IMG/VR virus record: IMGVR_UViG_3300037635_004223
Coordinates: 1 to 32,103 of that record
Strand: one strand, 5' to 3'
DNA: 32,103 bases
Source of the DNA: a virus
Made by a program: the position numbers and the translations under genes. Shown in pieces: positions 183 through 7,415 of the stretch. Every line of letters starts with the position of its first letter. Position 1 is the stretch's first letter. The notes under the pieces were generated by a model. That model ran no database searches and was not told the DNA's origin. It saw nothing but the letters and a program-made list of their open reading frames with translations.

Positions 183-1376
183 TTAAGTCTGAACACCCAT
201 CCTATCAGATTTTCTAGTATATCCATTTTTAGTCCTTAAGAAAATTTTATTAGACTTAAAGTCATCCGCCACCAAGGAAGAAAATTTTGGTGTTTTACCG
301 ATGATATCAAACTTCACATAGATTACTTTATTTTCGATAGCATCCTGGAATATTTTATTATATGAAGTATTATTTTTGGAATCTGCAGAAACCATCTTCT
401 CGGATTCATACATAATTTCATTCAATGTGACTTGCTCACCCTTACCACTTAAGTAAGAATTACTCTCTAAAAATGGGAGCATAGCATTATAGTCAAACGC
501 ATCATCCTTATATCCAGTCCTTAGCCTATTGGCAACATCTTGAGCGGCTGCTAAGGGAGGACCCCCTGGTAAATTGGCAGCAGCAAGTATAGGACCACTA
601 ACAACAGTACCCTCATTTAGTTGTCTCAGTACTGCATATTGTGGTGTGTTTTGCCATTTGGCTAACTTCTGTGGGTCTTTACTCAATAAATCAATAATAT
701 CACCAGGCTTAACTACGTTAGTAGTTGTACCAGATTTTGCTGATATCGAATATGCTTTAGTCGGAGTCTTAATTACATAATCCAAGAGAGGTTCGTTTGG
801 TCTACTTGGGAAAAATATTTTAGATGATGCAGATATAGTAATCTGTTTTGATTGTAAAAGCCTATCTTTAATAATAGCAATTGGACCGAGAATCTCACCG
901 AAGTCCTTTTTAATATCATTTATTGGTAGATTTGGACTATACACACTATTAACATATGATAGTGGCTTCTTCTTCATATAATAAAGAACAAGTGCCTCTA
1001 GATATGTTTTGATAAAAGGTGCCAAATCACCATCAGAAATACTATTCAGCAGAACTTTTACATAATTATCTAACGTATAATCTTTATCAACTATACCAAA
1101 TGCCTGTGGTTTTAAATTAACTCTTGTCTGAGATCCAGGTTTTTGTAAATTATTGAAAGTTACTAGGTACTGCTTGTTATCCTTTACTCGTAGTATTGGG
1201 TATTTAGTATTATAGTCCGAAGACATAGCAATAACTTCTTCCCCAGCACCAATCTTTTGTGTCAAAATTCTGGATGGATTGCTTGGATCATAGCCAATAG
1301 AGTCCTTTTTCATATTGGTAGGAACATTTTGACCCCTAAAGTATTTTGACCACGCTTGGTTACCAGTAGATGCCAT
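183..1376 (-). CDS. Conserved cyanophage protein with a possible PD-(D/E)XK nuclease core
   Basis: 397 residues, not recognised with certainty. The N-terminal ~90 residues look beta-rich. The middle holds a pattern typical of restriction-endonuclease-like folds: E161 in a helix (DFGEILGP), D199 at the end of a strand (PLLDY), and S212-A213-K214 in the next strand (ISAKSG), with a proline-rich approach (FPSRPNEP) before the aspartate. That is E...D...xAK, an accepted PD-(D/E)XK variant. No signal peptide or membrane segment is visible. It starts 14 bases after the Mom-like gene, with AGGAAGG before the ATG, so it is probably the last gene of the gp43-uvsX-gp41 transcript. A DNA end-processing or host-DNA-degrading role is inference only; a structural protein is possible. 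Confidence 0.5.
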   Translation of the reverse strand: MASTGNQAWSKYFRGQNVPTNMKKDSIGYDPSNPSRILTQKIGAGEEVIAMSSDYNTKYPILRVKDNKQYLVTFNNLQKPGSQTRVNLKPQAFGIVDKDYTLDNYVKVLLNSISDGDLAPFIKTYLEALVLYYMKKKPLSYVNSVYSPNLPINDIKKDFGEILGPIAIIKDRLLQSKQITISASSKIFFPSRPNEPLLDYVIKTPTKAYSISAKSGTTTNVVKPGDIIDLLSKDPQKLAKWQNTPQYAVLRQLNEGTVVSGPILAAANLPGGPPLAAAQDVANRLRTGYKDDAFDYNAMLPFLESNSYLSGKGEQVTLNEIMYESEKMVSADSKNNTSYNKIFQDAIENKVIYVKFDIIGKTPKFSSLVADDFKSNKIFLRTKNGYTRKSDRMGVQT

Positions 1377-1390
1377 TACATAATACCTTC

Positions 1391-2005
1391 CTATTGGTAT
1401 TTAGTTTCTTTCCACTTAATGCTCTTCTTAAGATTCTTATCATAGATTAGTAAAAATCTATGCTTTCTACTTCTAGGTCTCCACTCACCTTCAACACCTT
1501 TAACAGATCCCCTTGAGTGCTTAATATATGTTCCATCTGACTGCTTTATCCAAAAGTCTTTCTTAGCATCAGATAGCCCATAGTACTTAAAGTTAGTTGC
1601 TTTGTATATAGTACCCTCATGATGAGCACTATCAGCATAACTTAGTATTGCTTTTACATTAACATCCTTCCTAAACATTTTAATACATCTAGAAACAAAC
1701 CAAGATGTAATATTATATTCAGCTCTCTGAGTTTCTGGATGAATACATAAACGCGAAAGTTCCCAGAGACCATCTTGCTGATCTCTGGGTAAACCAAACG
1801 CACCTACAGCAATCTCAGGAACAGGTATCTTTGTGAAGATACAAGCCCCTAGACAGCCACTAACATGAAGAACTTCATCTTTATATAGACCATAGTTATA
1901 GCCACTTTTAAAGTCCTTTGACTCATCTTTCAGATAGTGATAAGTATATAGTATATCCTGTATTTGTTTCTTAGAACTACGTTCTATGATGAAGTCACTT
2001 TTCAT
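1391..2005 (-). CDS. Mom-like DNA modification protein (GNAT-like fold)
   Basis: 204 residues. It resembles the phage Mu Mom family, GNAT-like proteins that convert adenine in DNA to a carbamoylmethylated form and so protect phage DNA from restriction. Family-like segments are the YHYLKD pair H23-Y24, ELSRLCIHP (residues 82-90), NITSWFVSRC (98-107) and SYADSAHHEGTIYKATNF (122-139) with D125 and Y134. From memory, Mu Mom depends on a His-Tyr pair plus an Asp and a Tyr in equivalent places; I could not verify the alignment. The ATG shares one base with the gp41 stop (TAATG), so it is translationally coupled to the helicase and expressed with the replisome. A plain GNAT acetyltransferase is the main alternative. 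Confidence 0.65.
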   Translation of the reverse strand: MKSDFIIERSSKKQIQDILYTYHYLKDESKDFKSGYNYGLYKDEVLHVSGCLGACIFTKIPVPEIAVGAFGLPRDQQDGLWELSRLCIHPETQRAEYNITSWFVSRCIKMFRKDVNVKAILSYADSAHHEGTIYKATNFKYYGLSDAKKDFWIKQSDGTYIKHSRGSVKGVEGEWRPRSRKHRFLLIYDKNLKKSIKWKETKYQ

Positions 2006-3387
2006 TAGAAGTTTAGTTTGGCGAACTTTTCTTTAAATGGTTTGGGTGAGTCATCAGAGTTCTCATACTCTTCTTCCCCTCCTCCCATAATATCATCTTG
2101 AGCTGATTGCTCGCAGTCATAAAGGCGCATCTTGGCGCGGTCAATACCGACAACAAAACGCTTGTGGATGGTGGGATCATTGTATCTGTTCTTAAGTTGT
2201 TTTACCATAATTTGTCCCAGACCTTCTAGCTCCTCTGTTGAGATGAGCGCTACCATAAGGTCAGCAGTGGCTGGAAGCCCGAAGGATTCAGAAGTATCTG
2301 TGATATCCACATCACTGTTTCCATAGCCGCTACGGGTCGTCTGGGTGGCGCTGACAATGGGTAGGTTGAACTCTACCGCTAGACCACGTAGCTCCTCAGC
2401 AATGCTCTTGACGAGTGTGTATGAGTTAGCATTCGCTCCTGCCTTGATACGGCTGGAAGCACAGATGTTTAGATAGTCAATGAAGATAATATCTGGGCGG
2501 AAGTTTTTCTTGAGTTGTAGCTCATTTAGAAGTGCCTTGAAGTGACCAGAGTGTGCCTGGGCAGTGGGGTATTCCTTGATGATAAGGGAACCTTGAACTT
2601 TCTTGGCTACCTTGGTTACCTTATCCTCAAACATTTTCTTGGATAGGCTTGAAATATCTTGGATATTTACATTGAGTAGGTTGGCATCAATACGTTCCGC
2701 AATCTTCTCCTCAGCCATCTCAGCAGTAATGTATAGAACATTCTTACCTTGCATCAAAGAAGCAGCAGCCACGTGACACATAAAGAGTGACTTACCAACA
2801 CCAGTACCAGCCAAGGCAATGTTGAGTGACTTGTTAGTCAGACCACCCTTGGTGATCTTATTGAGTAGCTCAATATCAAATGGGATCTTATCTTCCTTAC
2901 GTGTATAGAAGTCAAAACGCTCAGAGGCATCTTCAATGTAGTCGTGTCCTACATTACTATCAAAGGAGACCGCCAGAGCGCTTGAGAGGATGCTAGGAAT
3001 AGCGTCCTCTGTCTTCTGCTTACTATCACCATTAGCAATACCCACAGACTCCATAAGGGCGTTGTAGATGGCTTGCTTCTTACACCACTTCTCCGTAGTA
3101 TCTTGCATCCACTCATCAGTACCTGTTACATCATCAAAGGATGTGAGGATGGTACGAATGTTTTGAACTTCAGTTTCAGAGAGGTTATTACGTGCCTCTA
3201 CCTCGATTCCAAGTGCTTCTTTAGATGGGCGAGCGTTGTACTTGACCATGTATTGGGCAATCTCCTCAAAGAGGACTCGCTCTGATGAATCGTGGAAATA
3301 GTCAGGTTCAATAAATGGAATGACTTTGCGTGAGTAGTTTTCATTATATACTAATGATCGTAGAATAAGGTTTTCAATTCTTTCCAT
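2005..3387 (-). CDS. gp41: gp41 replicative DNA helicase (DnaB-like)
   Basis: 460 residues, close to T4 gp41 (475). This is the hexameric 5'-3' helicase that unwinds the fork ahead of gp43 and partners the primase. It has an N-terminal helical domain (about 1-165) and a RecA-type ATPase core with Walker A GTGVGKS (194-200), Walker B IIFIDYLN around D304, and the motif SATQTTRSGYG near residue 350 typical of DnaB family members. The acidic C-terminal tail (EEEYENSDDS) before KFAKLNF is family-like. AGGA lies 7 bases before the ATG. It follows uvsX by 12 bases and overlaps the Mom-like start by one base. Confidence 0.97.
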   Translation of the reverse strand: MERIENLILRSLVYNENYSRKVIPFIEPDYFHDSSERVLFEEIAQYMVKYNARPSKEALGIEVEARNNLSETEVQNIRTILTSFDDVTGTDEWMQDTTEKWCKKQAIYNALMESVGIANGDSKQKTEDAIPSILSSALAVSFDSNVGHDYIEDASERFDFYTRKEDKIPFDIELLNKITKGGLTNKSLNIALAGTGVGKSLFMCHVAAASLMQGKNVLYITAEMAEEKIAERIDANLLNVNIQDISSLSKKMFEDKVTKVAKKVQGSLIIKEYPTAQAHSGHFKALLNELQLKKNFRPDIIFIDYLNICASSRIKAGANANSYTLVKSIAEELRGLAVEFNLPIVSATQTTRSGYGNSDVDITDTSESFGLPATADLMVALISTEELEGLGQIMVKQLKNRYNDPTIHKRFVVGIDRAKMRLYDCEQSAQDDIMGGGEEEYENSDDSPKPFKEKFAKLNF

Positions 3388-3399
3388 TAAATGTCCTAG

Positions 3400-4407
3400 T
3401 TAGTTTCCATATGAGAATGTTCCTTTAGCAATTACTTCTAGCTTTTCCATAACTTCTGGTGTGAAGTATTGCTCTGGATCTTTAAGAATGGTTTTAGCAT
3501 AGGTCTTTTTGCCATCACCCATATCATAACGTCCTGCGACGTTTTTCCACATACCACCCTTTTCACCTAGCTCTAGAAGACCAAAGTACTTATCAAGTCC
3601 TCGCTCATCATAATACAAACGGACGCCTACGTCCATATTCTCTTTACTTAAACGCGACTTAGCAGTCTTTGCCTTGATAATGTTTCCAACAATCTCTGTT
3701 CCATCCTTCTCTTTCTTCTTAGAGAGATGAATGATAGTAGAAGCGGCATACTTAAGACCAGAGCCACCACCCATTTCCTTTGTAGGAACATAAGCACCGA
3801 TAACGTCATATGTGTGGTTTGTTACTAGCATTGGAATCTTAGCCTGTCCTAGCTTCAAAGTCAACATACGGAATGCTCCTTTGATTAGCTGGGATTTAGT
3901 CATATCGCGGACTTGCTTATCGTCTAGCGCATCGTTGATCTCCTTATTAGTGGAGAGCATACCAAGGGAGTCTAGCACAAACATACAAGGCTTACGGTCT
4001 GCCTCAGGTGTCTTTAGATACATATCAACAATCTTAAGTGCCTTTGTGCGGAACTCTTCGATTGTTACGACATTGACAACAGCCAAACGGTTAAGGTCGA
4101 TGCCACGTGATGAAAGAAGTGACTTATTGACTGCTGCTTCAGTATCAAAATAAATGCAAGATGCATCGGGACTAGAATCCAGGAAGTTCTTGACGACTGC
4201 GAGTGAGAAAAAAGTCTTACCAGTAGAGCTTTCCCCAGCAATTGCAGTAATTTTGTCACCAGAAACGCCACCGTACAAAGACCCAGATACAAGAGCATTA
4301 AAGATGAATGAACCAGTGTCCACATATGTCTCGGTTTCGTCAATGTCTGACGCAATCTTAGAGTAGTCGCCACCAATCTCATTTACAATATCCTTTAGAA
4401 AATCCAT
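3400..4407 (-). CDS. uvsX: UvsX RecA-like recombinase
   Basis: 335 residues. RecA/Rad51-family strand-exchange protein used in T4-like phages for recombination-dependent replication and repair. The ATPase core holds Walker A GESSTGKT (58-65), the catalytic-glutamate strand FDTEAAVN, Walker B MFVLDSLG, and the L2-like region around GGGSGLKYAAS. The length is somewhat below T4 UvsX (391), as in other cyanomyoviruses. It follows a 76-residue gene by 9 bases and precedes gp41 by 12, in a gp43-small-small-uvsX-gp41 operon. I see no strong Shine-Dalgarno sequence before its ATG. Confidence 0.97.
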   Translation of the reverse strand: MDFLKDIVNEIGGDYSKIASDIDETETYVDTGSFIFNALVSGSLYGGVSGDKITAIAGESSTGKTFFSLAVVKNFLDSSPDASCIYFDTEAAVNKSLLSSRGIDLNRLAVVNVVTIEEFRTKALKIVDMYLKTPEADRKPCMFVLDSLGMLSTNKEINDALDDKQVRDMTKSQLIKGAFRMLTLKLGQAKIPMLVTNHTYDVIGAYVPTKEMGGGSGLKYAASTIIHLSKKKEKDGTEIVGNIIKAKTAKSRLSKENMDVGVRLYYDERGLDKYFGLLELGEKGGMWKNVAGRYDMGDGKKTYAKTILKDPEQYFTPEVMEKLEVIAKGTFSYGN

Positions 4408-4814: not shown

Positions 4815-7415
4815 TTATCCAAAAAACGATTCTAGTGTAACTGTTTTCTCGGAATGCCAACCAATAGAATCAAGAATGATTTTTAGTGGCTCCAAGAAAC
4901 TTTTGTTGAACTGTAAGTCATAATCAATGTACCGCTCTAGATTTAGCTCCTTAGGGAAGTCTGAAATGAATGAAATAACATTCTCTCCAATCTTATTAGG
5001 CACCTTTAAGTAGCAGAACTTGATCTTCTCCCCATTATTAATCAATGAGTACTTCTTATCTAGCCCATTCTTTTTGATGTAGTGATTGAATAGAAGTGCT
5101 CCTCGACAATGGATGGGAGTTCCCTTAGCATAAATGCTGACTGGGGACTTATATTTAACAACATCACTAACAGATCTAGGGAATGAAATCTGTTCTGGTG
5201 GAAGCATCTTAAACTGAAGTCTACAACTATCAATGTAGTCAATAACTTCGTCCTCAGTGCCCACCATAACAAGCTTGAGTGCCTCTTTAATCATTGACCT
5301 ACACGGAGCAGGGGTGGATGATTTGACTGCCTCAATGCCCATCATTTTGAGCTTAGGTTGAGCATAACGCACACCCTCACTATCCCATACATTCAGAATG
5401 TAACGCTTCTTAGCGGTCCAAATACCACGGTCTGCGATATTCTCCCTCTTCATCTGCATCTTCTGATCATACGCATTCACATAGTGAGCAAGCTCTTGAT
5501 ATGAATTATCAATAAAGGGCTCAATCTTAGCTTGACAGAATCCATCTAGTGCGTCAACAATCTTCTCTTTAGATACATCCTTATCACCAAACACCTTATC
5601 AACAACAGGTCCCATATGTAGGTAGATTGAATCAGTGTCTGACGCAATAACATAGTCAACCTTGTCTGTACCTAGTGTCTTATTCATATACCCATTGAGC
5701 TTATTCTCAATCCAGCGAATAGAAGTCTGACCAGATAAGGTGATAGCCTCAGCATTTGCTAGTTTGAAATACCTGAAGTATTGATTACCAATAGCACCAT
5801 AAGCACTGTTAAGAGAAATCTTCTTCGCCATTTGAATGTTGTTACAGCGGGAGATCTCCTTTTCAAGTGCTTTAGAAGGCTTCGTCTCATTGAGCTGCTT
5901 GGCTGCGAGCATTCTCTTCTTAAAGATAACTCGTTCTGCATACATCTTCTCCATTAGTTCGGGCAACATTCCCTTAACACGACGGTAGATAGCGCCGTTA
6001 GCAGTCATAGTCCAGTCAAGAACCTTCAATGGAGATAAATCTAGCTCCATATCCAAGACCTTATAGACATTAATCTTGCCCGATAGCTGCCTAATTTCAA
6101 TCATAGCTTCTAGCTTCTCTTGATCATATGACGGGTCATTCTGTGCATTATGAATCATAATGTTTAGATCATCCATAGTAATAAGCGTCTCTGGGGAGAT
6201 CGCATACTGCATAATCAAGTGAGGATATAGTGAGTTAAGGTCAAAGCTCACAACGTAATCATACTTACCTGGCTTAGGTTCCTTAACATATGCTCCAGCA
6301 TACTTTGAGTCCTTATCAACTTTTACTTTTGGTGGGATGACGACCTTCTTATCACGAAGATAATTGTAGATAATAGTATCCCACATACGCACTTGATAAA
6401 ATACGTCACGGAAGTTTACCTTAGCGTCAAAAGCCATAGTAAGAGCAAGGTCAATAAGTTTCATCTTATCTTCCAAGCGGTCAACTAATTCCACGTCAAT
6501 GATGTTGTATTCAACAAACTTCTGCCAACCTTGGCGATAGAAATCTTTGAAGGTTTCAAACTCACTGTGATCCAACTTCTTCTGCCCAAGCTCTACATCA
6601 GCAATATGATCTAGACGATAGCTTTCCTGATTAGAATATGTGAACTTTTTATATAGATTGAGATAGTCAAGTTGAGTAACACCAGCAATATCAAAGTAGA
6701 TCTTCTCCTGACCTTTGATAAAGTGCTTCTCTTCGGATACTAGCTTCCACGGTGACAACGTTTTCATTGTCTTGGAACCTAACAGACGCTCAATGCGGTT
6801 ACAGAGATATGGAATATCATAATATTCCAAGTTCCATCCAGTAACAACGTCTGGGGTATCCTTTGTCCACCAAGCTAGGAATGAATTGAGTAGATGATGC
6901 TCATCATAGCAGGGGCGAAAGTCAACATTCTCCTGCTTATTGGTGAAGTCGCCGTGCTTAGTTTGACCCCAAGTAATAATCTTCTTGGTATTATAGTCCT
7001 GAACTGTGATTAACAGTACTTCCTCGGCAGCATTCTCTGGGTCTGGGAAACCCATTTCAGTCTCAACCTCAATATCAACAGTGACCATCTTCATCAATGA
7101 TGTATCAAATTTGATATCACCAGGATAGTTTTCAGCTAAAAATTGAAAGATGAAGCGCTCATTCCCATAGACATTGAAGTTTTCAACTTCATCATACCTC
7201 TTGATAAACTCACGACACTCCTTAATTGTTCCAGGTTTTATTGGCTCTACATTCTCACCATCAAGTGTCTTCCAGTCACTATCTTTCTTGGAAGACACAA
7301 ACAATGTAGGTGAAAAGTTTTTCCTTACATTAAAACGCTCACCGTTCTCATATCCCCTGAAGAGAATAGAGTTTCCGTACATTTGTACATTGGTGTAGAA
7401 CTTATTTTTAGACAT
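4815..7415 (-). CDS. gp43: gp43 family B DNA polymerase
   Basis: 866 residues, near T4 gp43 (898). Replicative polymerase with 3'-5' proofreading. Exonuclease motifs: Exo I VTVDIEVE (D114, E116), Exo II GWNLEYYDIPYL (about 193-204) and Exo III YNIIDVEL (D307). Polymerase motifs: A FDLNSLYPHL (D392), B KKISLNSAYG (531-540) and C ASDTDSIYL (D593, D595), followed by the KKRYILN block. All catalytic residues are intact, and I see no intron, split or intein. Its ATG shares one base with the stop of the preceding Sm-like gene (TAATG), so translation is coupled. The promoter for this operon is probably the extended -10 at 8117-8125. Confidence 0.98.
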   Translation of the reverse strand: MSKNKFYTNVQMYGNSILFRGYENGERFNVRKNFSPTLFVSSKKDSDWKTLDGENVEPIKPGTIKECREFIKRYDEVENFNVYGNERFIFQFLAENYPGDIKFDTSLMKMVTVDIEVETEMGFPDPENAAEEVLLITVQDYNTKKIITWGQTKHGDFTNKQENVDFRPCYDEHHLLNSFLAWWTKDTPDVVTGWNLEYYDIPYLCNRIERLLGSKTMKTLSPWKLVSEEKHFIKGQEKIYFDIAGVTQLDYLNLYKKFTYSNQESYRLDHIADVELGQKKLDHSEFETFKDFYRQGWQKFVEYNIIDVELVDRLEDKMKLIDLALTMAFDAKVNFRDVFYQVRMWDTIIYNYLRDKKVVIPPKVKVDKDSKYAGAYVKEPKPGKYDYVVSFDLNSLYPHLIMQYAISPETLITMDDLNIMIHNAQNDPSYDQEKLEAMIEIRQLSGKINVYKVLDMELDLSPLKVLDWTMTANGAIYRRVKGMLPELMEKMYAERVIFKKRMLAAKQLNETKPSKALEKEISRCNNIQMAKKISLNSAYGAIGNQYFRYFKLANAEAITLSGQTSIRWIENKLNGYMNKTLGTDKVDYVIASDTDSIYLHMGPVVDKVFGDKDVSKEKIVDALDGFCQAKIEPFIDNSYQELAHYVNAYDQKMQMKRENIADRGIWTAKKRYILNVWDSEGVRYAQPKLKMMGIEAVKSSTPAPCRSMIKEALKLVMVGTEDEVIDYIDSCRLQFKMLPPEQISFPRSVSDVVKYKSPVSIYAKGTPIHCRGALLFNHYIKKNGLDKKYSLINNGEKIKFCYLKVPNKIGENVISFISDFPKELNLERYIDYDLQFNKSFLEPLKIILDSIGWHSEKTVTLESFFG

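Follow-up and report, generated by a model that had tools for sequence, protein, structure and literature searches.

A Mom-family protein encoded in the replication operon of a T4-like cyanophage, and a candidate nuclease gene beside it

Introduction

Does a cyanophage encode a true Mom protein among its replication genes, and if so, what might the protein do there? To our knowledge, Mom chemistry has been worked out in phage Mu only. We studied a stretch of 32,103 nt (IMG/VR record IMGVR_UViG_3300037635_004223, positions 1 to 32,103), here called the window, in which a mom-like gene adjoins the gene for the replicative helicase. The cyanophage origin proposed in the initial annotation is right: the window is part of the genome of a marine T4-like phage, and its nearest isolate is Synechococcus phage S-CAM7, with 87% DNA identity. 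By one account Mu Mom guards DNA against restriction (PMC6483171). A mom gene in a replication operon is unexpected because Mu mom is a late gene and premature or excess Mom is toxic (PMC4461284).

Results

Mom family membership and active-site residues

The mom-like ORF had been placed at 1391..2005; it is open and encodes 204 aa as claimed, on the minus strand (2005 to 1391). The product scored 74.8 bits with the Pfam Mom family (PF25680), for which the cut-off is 27.1 (E 9.6e-21), the alignment running over residues 5–203 of 204 and profile positions 2–200 of 202, and it matched PHROG 1384, "Mom-like DNA modification protein", at 1.8e-29. When a profile of the window Mom and 67 relatives was compared with the PDB, phage Mu Mom (8BV8) was found at 3.2e-9 and no other chain was found. 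The AlphaFold model of the protein (pLDDT 69.7, pTM 0.63, poor after residue 144) also had 8BV8 as its best Foldseek match (2.2e-6), and in VIA the model aligned with 8BV8 with a Z of 11.0 and an rmsd of 3.0 over 131 residues, at 24% identity, the highest identity in the list.

The Mom-type blocks on which the initial annotation was based are all in place: the N-terminal HY at residue 23, ELSRLCIHP at 82, NITSWFVSRC at 98 and SYADSAHHEGTIY at 122. Fifteen residues are invariant in the 68 Moms, namely H23, Y24, E82, L83, R85, L86, C87, S101, S122, Y123, D125, H129, G131, Y134 and A136. Aligned with Mu Mom, in the 241-aa annotated numbering, the His23-Tyr24 pair (1934..1939, minus strand, as for all window features that follow) corresponds to Mu H58-Y59; ELSRLC, residues 82–87 (1745..1762), includes the counterparts of Mu E108, L109 and R111; SYAD, residues 122–125 (1631..1642), corresponds to Mu S146-F-A-D149; and Tyr134 (1604..1606) corresponds to Mu Y159. 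Ser101 (1703..1705) is the counterpart of Mu S124; the crystallized protein of 8BV8 is, by its title, the inactive mutant S124A. The window protein thus has the H-Y pair and aligned counterparts of Mu R111, S124, D149 and Y159; the H-Y, R111, S124, D149 and Y159 positions we take to be the active site of Mu Mom. That the product is a true Mom-family protein is strongly supported on three counts: sequence profile, catalytic residues and fold.

Two other accounts of the protein were weighed. It has a GNAT fold, and many other GNATs were among the VIA matches of the model with scores about as high as that of 8BV8, as would be expected of an ordinary acetyl-CoA-dependent acetyltransferase. An intact acetyl-CoA site had been named beforehand as a sign against Mom; since the loop motif Q/R-x-x-G-x-G/A occurs in 0 of the 68 Mom relatives, no such sign was found. 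With Mom as the only PDB sequence match, the profile search places the product in Mom rather than in another GNAT family, and an ordinary acetyltransferase is exceedingly unlikely. It is also improbable, to a lesser degree, that the protein is a Mom homolog of changed chemistry, acting with another acyl group, on another base or on RNA. Identity to Mu Mom is low, so that base or acyl group could differ, and the Mom tree has very long branches; against this, all of the invariant active-site residues are common to Mu Mom.

Operon position and the gp41-mom junction

Upstream of mom, on the same strand, lie the genes for the gp41 replicative helicase (2005..3387; 460 aa; PHROG 19, DnaB-like helicase, 3e-136; Pfam DnaB_C 1.2e-19), the UvsX recombinase (3400..4407; PHROG 97, 3e-95) and the gp43 DNA polymerase (4815..7415; PHROG 262). 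The claimed overlap of the mom ATG with the helicase stop is real: the sequence at the junction is TAATG (2003..2007). It is kept in the related contigs L002 and L004, and in L005 the two genes abut as TAAATG. The further claim, that Mom is made with the replisome and so could act on new DNA at the fork, went beyond the evidence, as an overlap alone shows neither binding nor action at the fork; the arrangement suggests shared transcription and possible re-initiation only. In Mu, com lies upstream of mom; no com upstream of and overlapping mom was found in the window, where the upstream gene is gp41. From the low dN/dS of mom, 0.20 against L002, 0.08 against L004 and 0.04 against L005 (for which dS is saturated), the gene is judged to be under purifying selection. 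A weak Shine-Dalgarno sequence was considered as a brake on mom. The gene has none (duplex energy +1.9), which is uninformative because gp44, gp45 and many other window genes also lack one.

Relatives of the window Mom

At least 217 stretches in IMG/VR encode relatives of the window Mom. Of the 80 relatives that were fetched, the majority show 63–72% identity, and their genes stand in the late region, immediately ahead of a tail-fiber gene of ~1960 aa. The window arrangement (gp41-mom-ORF397-mazG where complete, ORF397 being the gene after mom) was seen among these 80 only in L002–L005 and in the fragments L079 and L085. The tree places the four gp41-linked Moms and that of Roseobacter phage CRP-212 in one group (support 93/99), inside a supported 40-row clade that contains all of the late-region copies. 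Because the gp41-linked group nests in that clade, the tree indicates that mom has changed place, the likely direction being from the late region to the replication operon. The placement of mom by replication genes is not unique to the window lineage, since mom is also beside the DNA polymerase gene in Enterococcus phage phiSHEF2 and Salmonella phage FSL SP-031. No consistent nuclease partner was found near the late-region (group I) Moms, whose neighbors are 2OG-Fe oxygenase genes, HNH/homing genes and small ORFs.

Other arrangements were noted among the relatives. Synechococcus phage S-SSM7 is a further bearer of Mom. In CRP-212, Mom and MazG are in one reading frame (L083:9977-10927). In L203:1-4648, and similarly in L204–L207, L209, L211 and L213–L215, a second Mom-family gene adjoins mom (PF25680, 1.2e-18 in L203), with DruA-like (PF14236) and glycosyltransferase-like genes nearby; the cluster may be a DNA hypermodification locus with several enzymes. 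In L220, L223, L224 and L242, the gene immediately upstream of mom is radical-SAM-like.

ORF397, a candidate nuclease gene downstream of mom

The initial annotation made no mention of the ORF at 183..1376, of the replacement of mom and this ORF in S-CAM7, or of the late location of most relatives. The ORF, here ORF397 (397 aa), starts 14 bp downstream of mom and has its own Shine-Dalgarno sequence, AGGAAGG. N153, E161, D199, S212 and K214 are invariant in 44 homologs, and among them E161 ... D199 ... S212-x-K214 (735..896) is a candidate catalytic triad of the PD-(D/E)XK pattern, E ... D ... (D/E/S)xK. In the structural model (pLDDT 89.8), helix 152–170 and strands 186–188, 200–203 and 208–215 fit a REase-like order. 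The match lists are filled by the SH3-like N-terminal domain (1125..1340; VIA Z about 7 to SH3-like domains): Foldseek and VIA searches with the whole model returned such domains almost exclusively, plus a single weak match to a tRNA splicing endonuclease, and the similar models in the viral structure library are phage proteins without names. No Pfam, PADLOC or PDB match was found for the core.

Homologs of ORF397 occur widely in the neighborhood of mazG, DUF6267 and cytidylyltransferase genes, and most have no Mom beside them. Mom was absent from four named records and from 14 of 15 contigs searched, the exception being a contig that had been fetched through Mom. Conversely, of 20 late-group Mom contigs, just one contained a convincing member of the ORF397 family.

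Genes just after some of the homologs (L105, L107, L110 and L119) encode proteins with similar M-x-S-F/L-x-x-F/Y-L/I-x-E starts, such as MKSFFQFLSE, MHSFKEYLEE and MISLSQYITE. These resemble the capsid-targeting leaders of T4, and by analogy proteins bearing them may be packaged and injected. In many phages (L089, L119) a DUF6267 gene with a KWDGAP motif, nucleotidyltransferase- or ligase-like, follows the ORF397 homolog.

Exchange of mom and ORF397 in S-CAM7

S-CAM7 gp41 is 98.9% identical to that of the window, and S-CAM7 mazG is 91% identical to mazG of L002 and L004. Between these genes S-CAM7 lacks mom and ORF397 and has instead a 376-aa ORF that is annotated as restriction enzyme CviJI and matches the PADLOC type II REase models (REase_II) at 3.8e-9. 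Mom was absent from the whole S-CAM7 record. The S-CAM7 enzyme and ORF397 have an N-terminal domain in common (hhalign E 1.5e-4). L005, with a gp41 only 76% identical to that of the window, retains both genes (Mom 82% and ORF397 63% identical), and mom and ORF397 are linked in all contigs of the window lineage. Because S-CAM7 swaps both genes and L005 keeps both despite its diverged gp41, comparison of these genomes indicates that in this lineage mom and ORF397 are exchanged as a unit. Given the invariant E/D/SxK triad and the N-terminal domain common to the S-CAM7 enzyme, ORF397 may be a nuclease partner of Mom.

S-CAM7 also carries a tRNA with a CUA anticodon (L082:858-931; called Pyl, amber-reading), which was confirmed by ARAGORN; no tRNA with this anticodon was found in the stretch of L101, a relative of the window.

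REase-Mom pairs in a second Mom group

In Synechococcus phage DSL-LC03 an annotated type II restriction endonuclease gene overlaps mom. A search with the DSL-LC03 Mom gave 80 loci, about half of which have a member of one of two unrelated ORF families, C3 and C4, just upstream of mom; a count by script, in which DSL-LC03 was included, found 22 members of each. In C3, E94, D117 and QxK are invariant, and the Pfam matches, to EcoO109I, are weak (best 2e-5). The invariant residues of C4 are E72, D94 and ExK; no Pfam match was found for this family. Neither C3, C4 nor ORF397 gave a meaningful PDB sequence match, and no profile similarity of the ORF397 core to C3, to C4 or to the core of the S-CAM7 enzyme was found. 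The nuclease activity of C3 and C4 is predicted from motifs, that of the DSL-LC03 protein from annotation.

Because the first loci had been fetched through Mom, a reverse search from C3 and C4 was carried out. The mom gene was directly downstream in 23/23 intact C3 loci and 28/28 C4 loci, 2 further C3 loci, cut off at the contig end, being outside the intact count. The overlap with mom was 32–68 nt in 51/51 intact loci, and was 38 nt in 33 of them; the contigs that cover this group are L171–L250 and L265–L316. By parsimony the Mom tree needs four partner changes, at least two of them forced by supported branches, which indicates that, over a constant Mom, at least two swaps of the nuclease have taken place. 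No REase-like ORF of the C3/C4 type lies upstream of and overlapping the window mom.

Discussion

As a whole, the observations are best explained by a Mom-family enzyme of GNAT fold that, very probably, carries out N6-adenine carbamoylmethylation of phage DNA and is encoded in the replication operon. If catalytically active, Mom would modify adenines of phage DNA at N6 by transfer of a carbamoylmethyl (glycinamide-type) group, the acyl group and the base being predictions from the sequence, and the modified adenines would shield the DNA from restriction nucleases. With its gene in the gp43-uvsX-gp41 operon, Mom would be made with the replication proteins, and the DNA would be modified during copying and not, as happens in phage Mu, at a late stage. 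As had been anticipated, virion DNA would then be likely to carry a modified adenine.

Whether ORF397 has any part in this is a separate matter. One reading, which extends the modification explanation and does not contradict it, makes mom and ORF397 a phage-borne cassette akin to restriction-modification, in which Mom would mark phage DNA and ORF397, as a PD-(D/E)XK-type nuclease, would cut unmarked host or rival DNA. This reading, which we consider plausible but short of probable, draws on the 14-bp gap, the common operon and the linkage throughout the lineage; on the single type II restriction-enzyme relative that stands in place of both genes in S-CAM7 between near-identical flanks and has an ORF397-type N-terminal domain; and on the invariance of the triad in the 44 homologs. 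There are precedents in the candidate REases C3 and C4, which overlap mom in every intact locus, and in the Mom-REase fusions of jumbo phages, predicted to be such pairs (PMC7824862). It is weakened by the many ORF397 homologs without a neighboring Mom, by the near absence of the ORF397 family from late-group Mom contigs, and by the core of ORF397, which resembles neither database families nor the other candidate nucleases. The same distribution, with homologs near mazG, DUF6267 and cytidylyltransferase genes and with group I Moms standing alone before a tail-fiber gene, favors instead an independent anti-restriction mom beside an unrelated conserved phage gene, ORF397 having, e.g., a head or recombination role. 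We give this reading an even chance; it does not readily account for the clean exchange of both genes for a restriction-enzyme gene.

Whichever part ORF397 plays, the Mom enzyme itself can be set against known systems. With Mu Mom (8BV8) it shares a full-length profile match, a GNAT-like fold and the same invariant residues, including that at S124; Mu mom, in contrast, is a late gene under the control of C, with com before it (PMC4461284), whereas the window mom follows gp41 in a replication operon that has no com. The Mom-MazG protein of CRP-212 is the nearest named relative (57% identical) and is also encoded among replication genes, but there the Mom frame runs on into MazG, while the window lineage has mazG as a gene of its own, following ORF397. 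The late-region Moms of T4-like IMG/VR contigs belong to the same protein subfamily and differ in their place before the tail-fiber gene. In the jumbo-phage fusion (PMC7824862), Mom is likewise tied to a nuclease, with predicted modification and restriction parts, but in one polypeptide, where the window has separate ORFs and ORF397 is the candidate nuclease. In the DSL-LC03 pair, too, the mom gene of a cyanophage shares an operon with a gene of nuclease type; this Mom is of another subgroup, and the nuclease gene is upstream, overlapping and of different families.

For the jumbo-phage fusions, Iyer and colleagues predicted that Mom shields the DNA of the phage and that the nuclease is directed against DNA of hosts or rivals (PMC7824862). 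The overlapping C3 and C4 pairs fit that prediction and carry it over to cases in which the two parts are separate genes. For the DSL-LC03 group, synteny gives good support to a phage-borne restriction-modification system in which Mom is the modifier; for the window lineage such a system is a candidate. A broader proposal, which at present we regard as tentative and rather doubtful, is that marine T4-like phages carry exchangeable restriction-modification cassettes with Mom instead of a methyltransferase and a swappable nuclease; in the window, mom and an SH3-PD-(D/E)XK protein would be made with replisome genes, so that new phage DNA would be protected while host DNA is cut.

In sum, the window mom adds a member to a family already known, and the place it occupies is unusual. 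That place raises the question of how early expression of Mom, toxic when mistimed in Mu, is tolerated. If Mom is active here, Synechococcus phages would carry a hypermodified adenine, with effects on host restriction, on the sequencing of viral DNA and on phage competition. Of larger interest is a possible role of Mom as the protective partner in swappable restriction cassettes of phages, so far predicted from jumbo-phage fusions; the REase-Mom pairs bear on this role.
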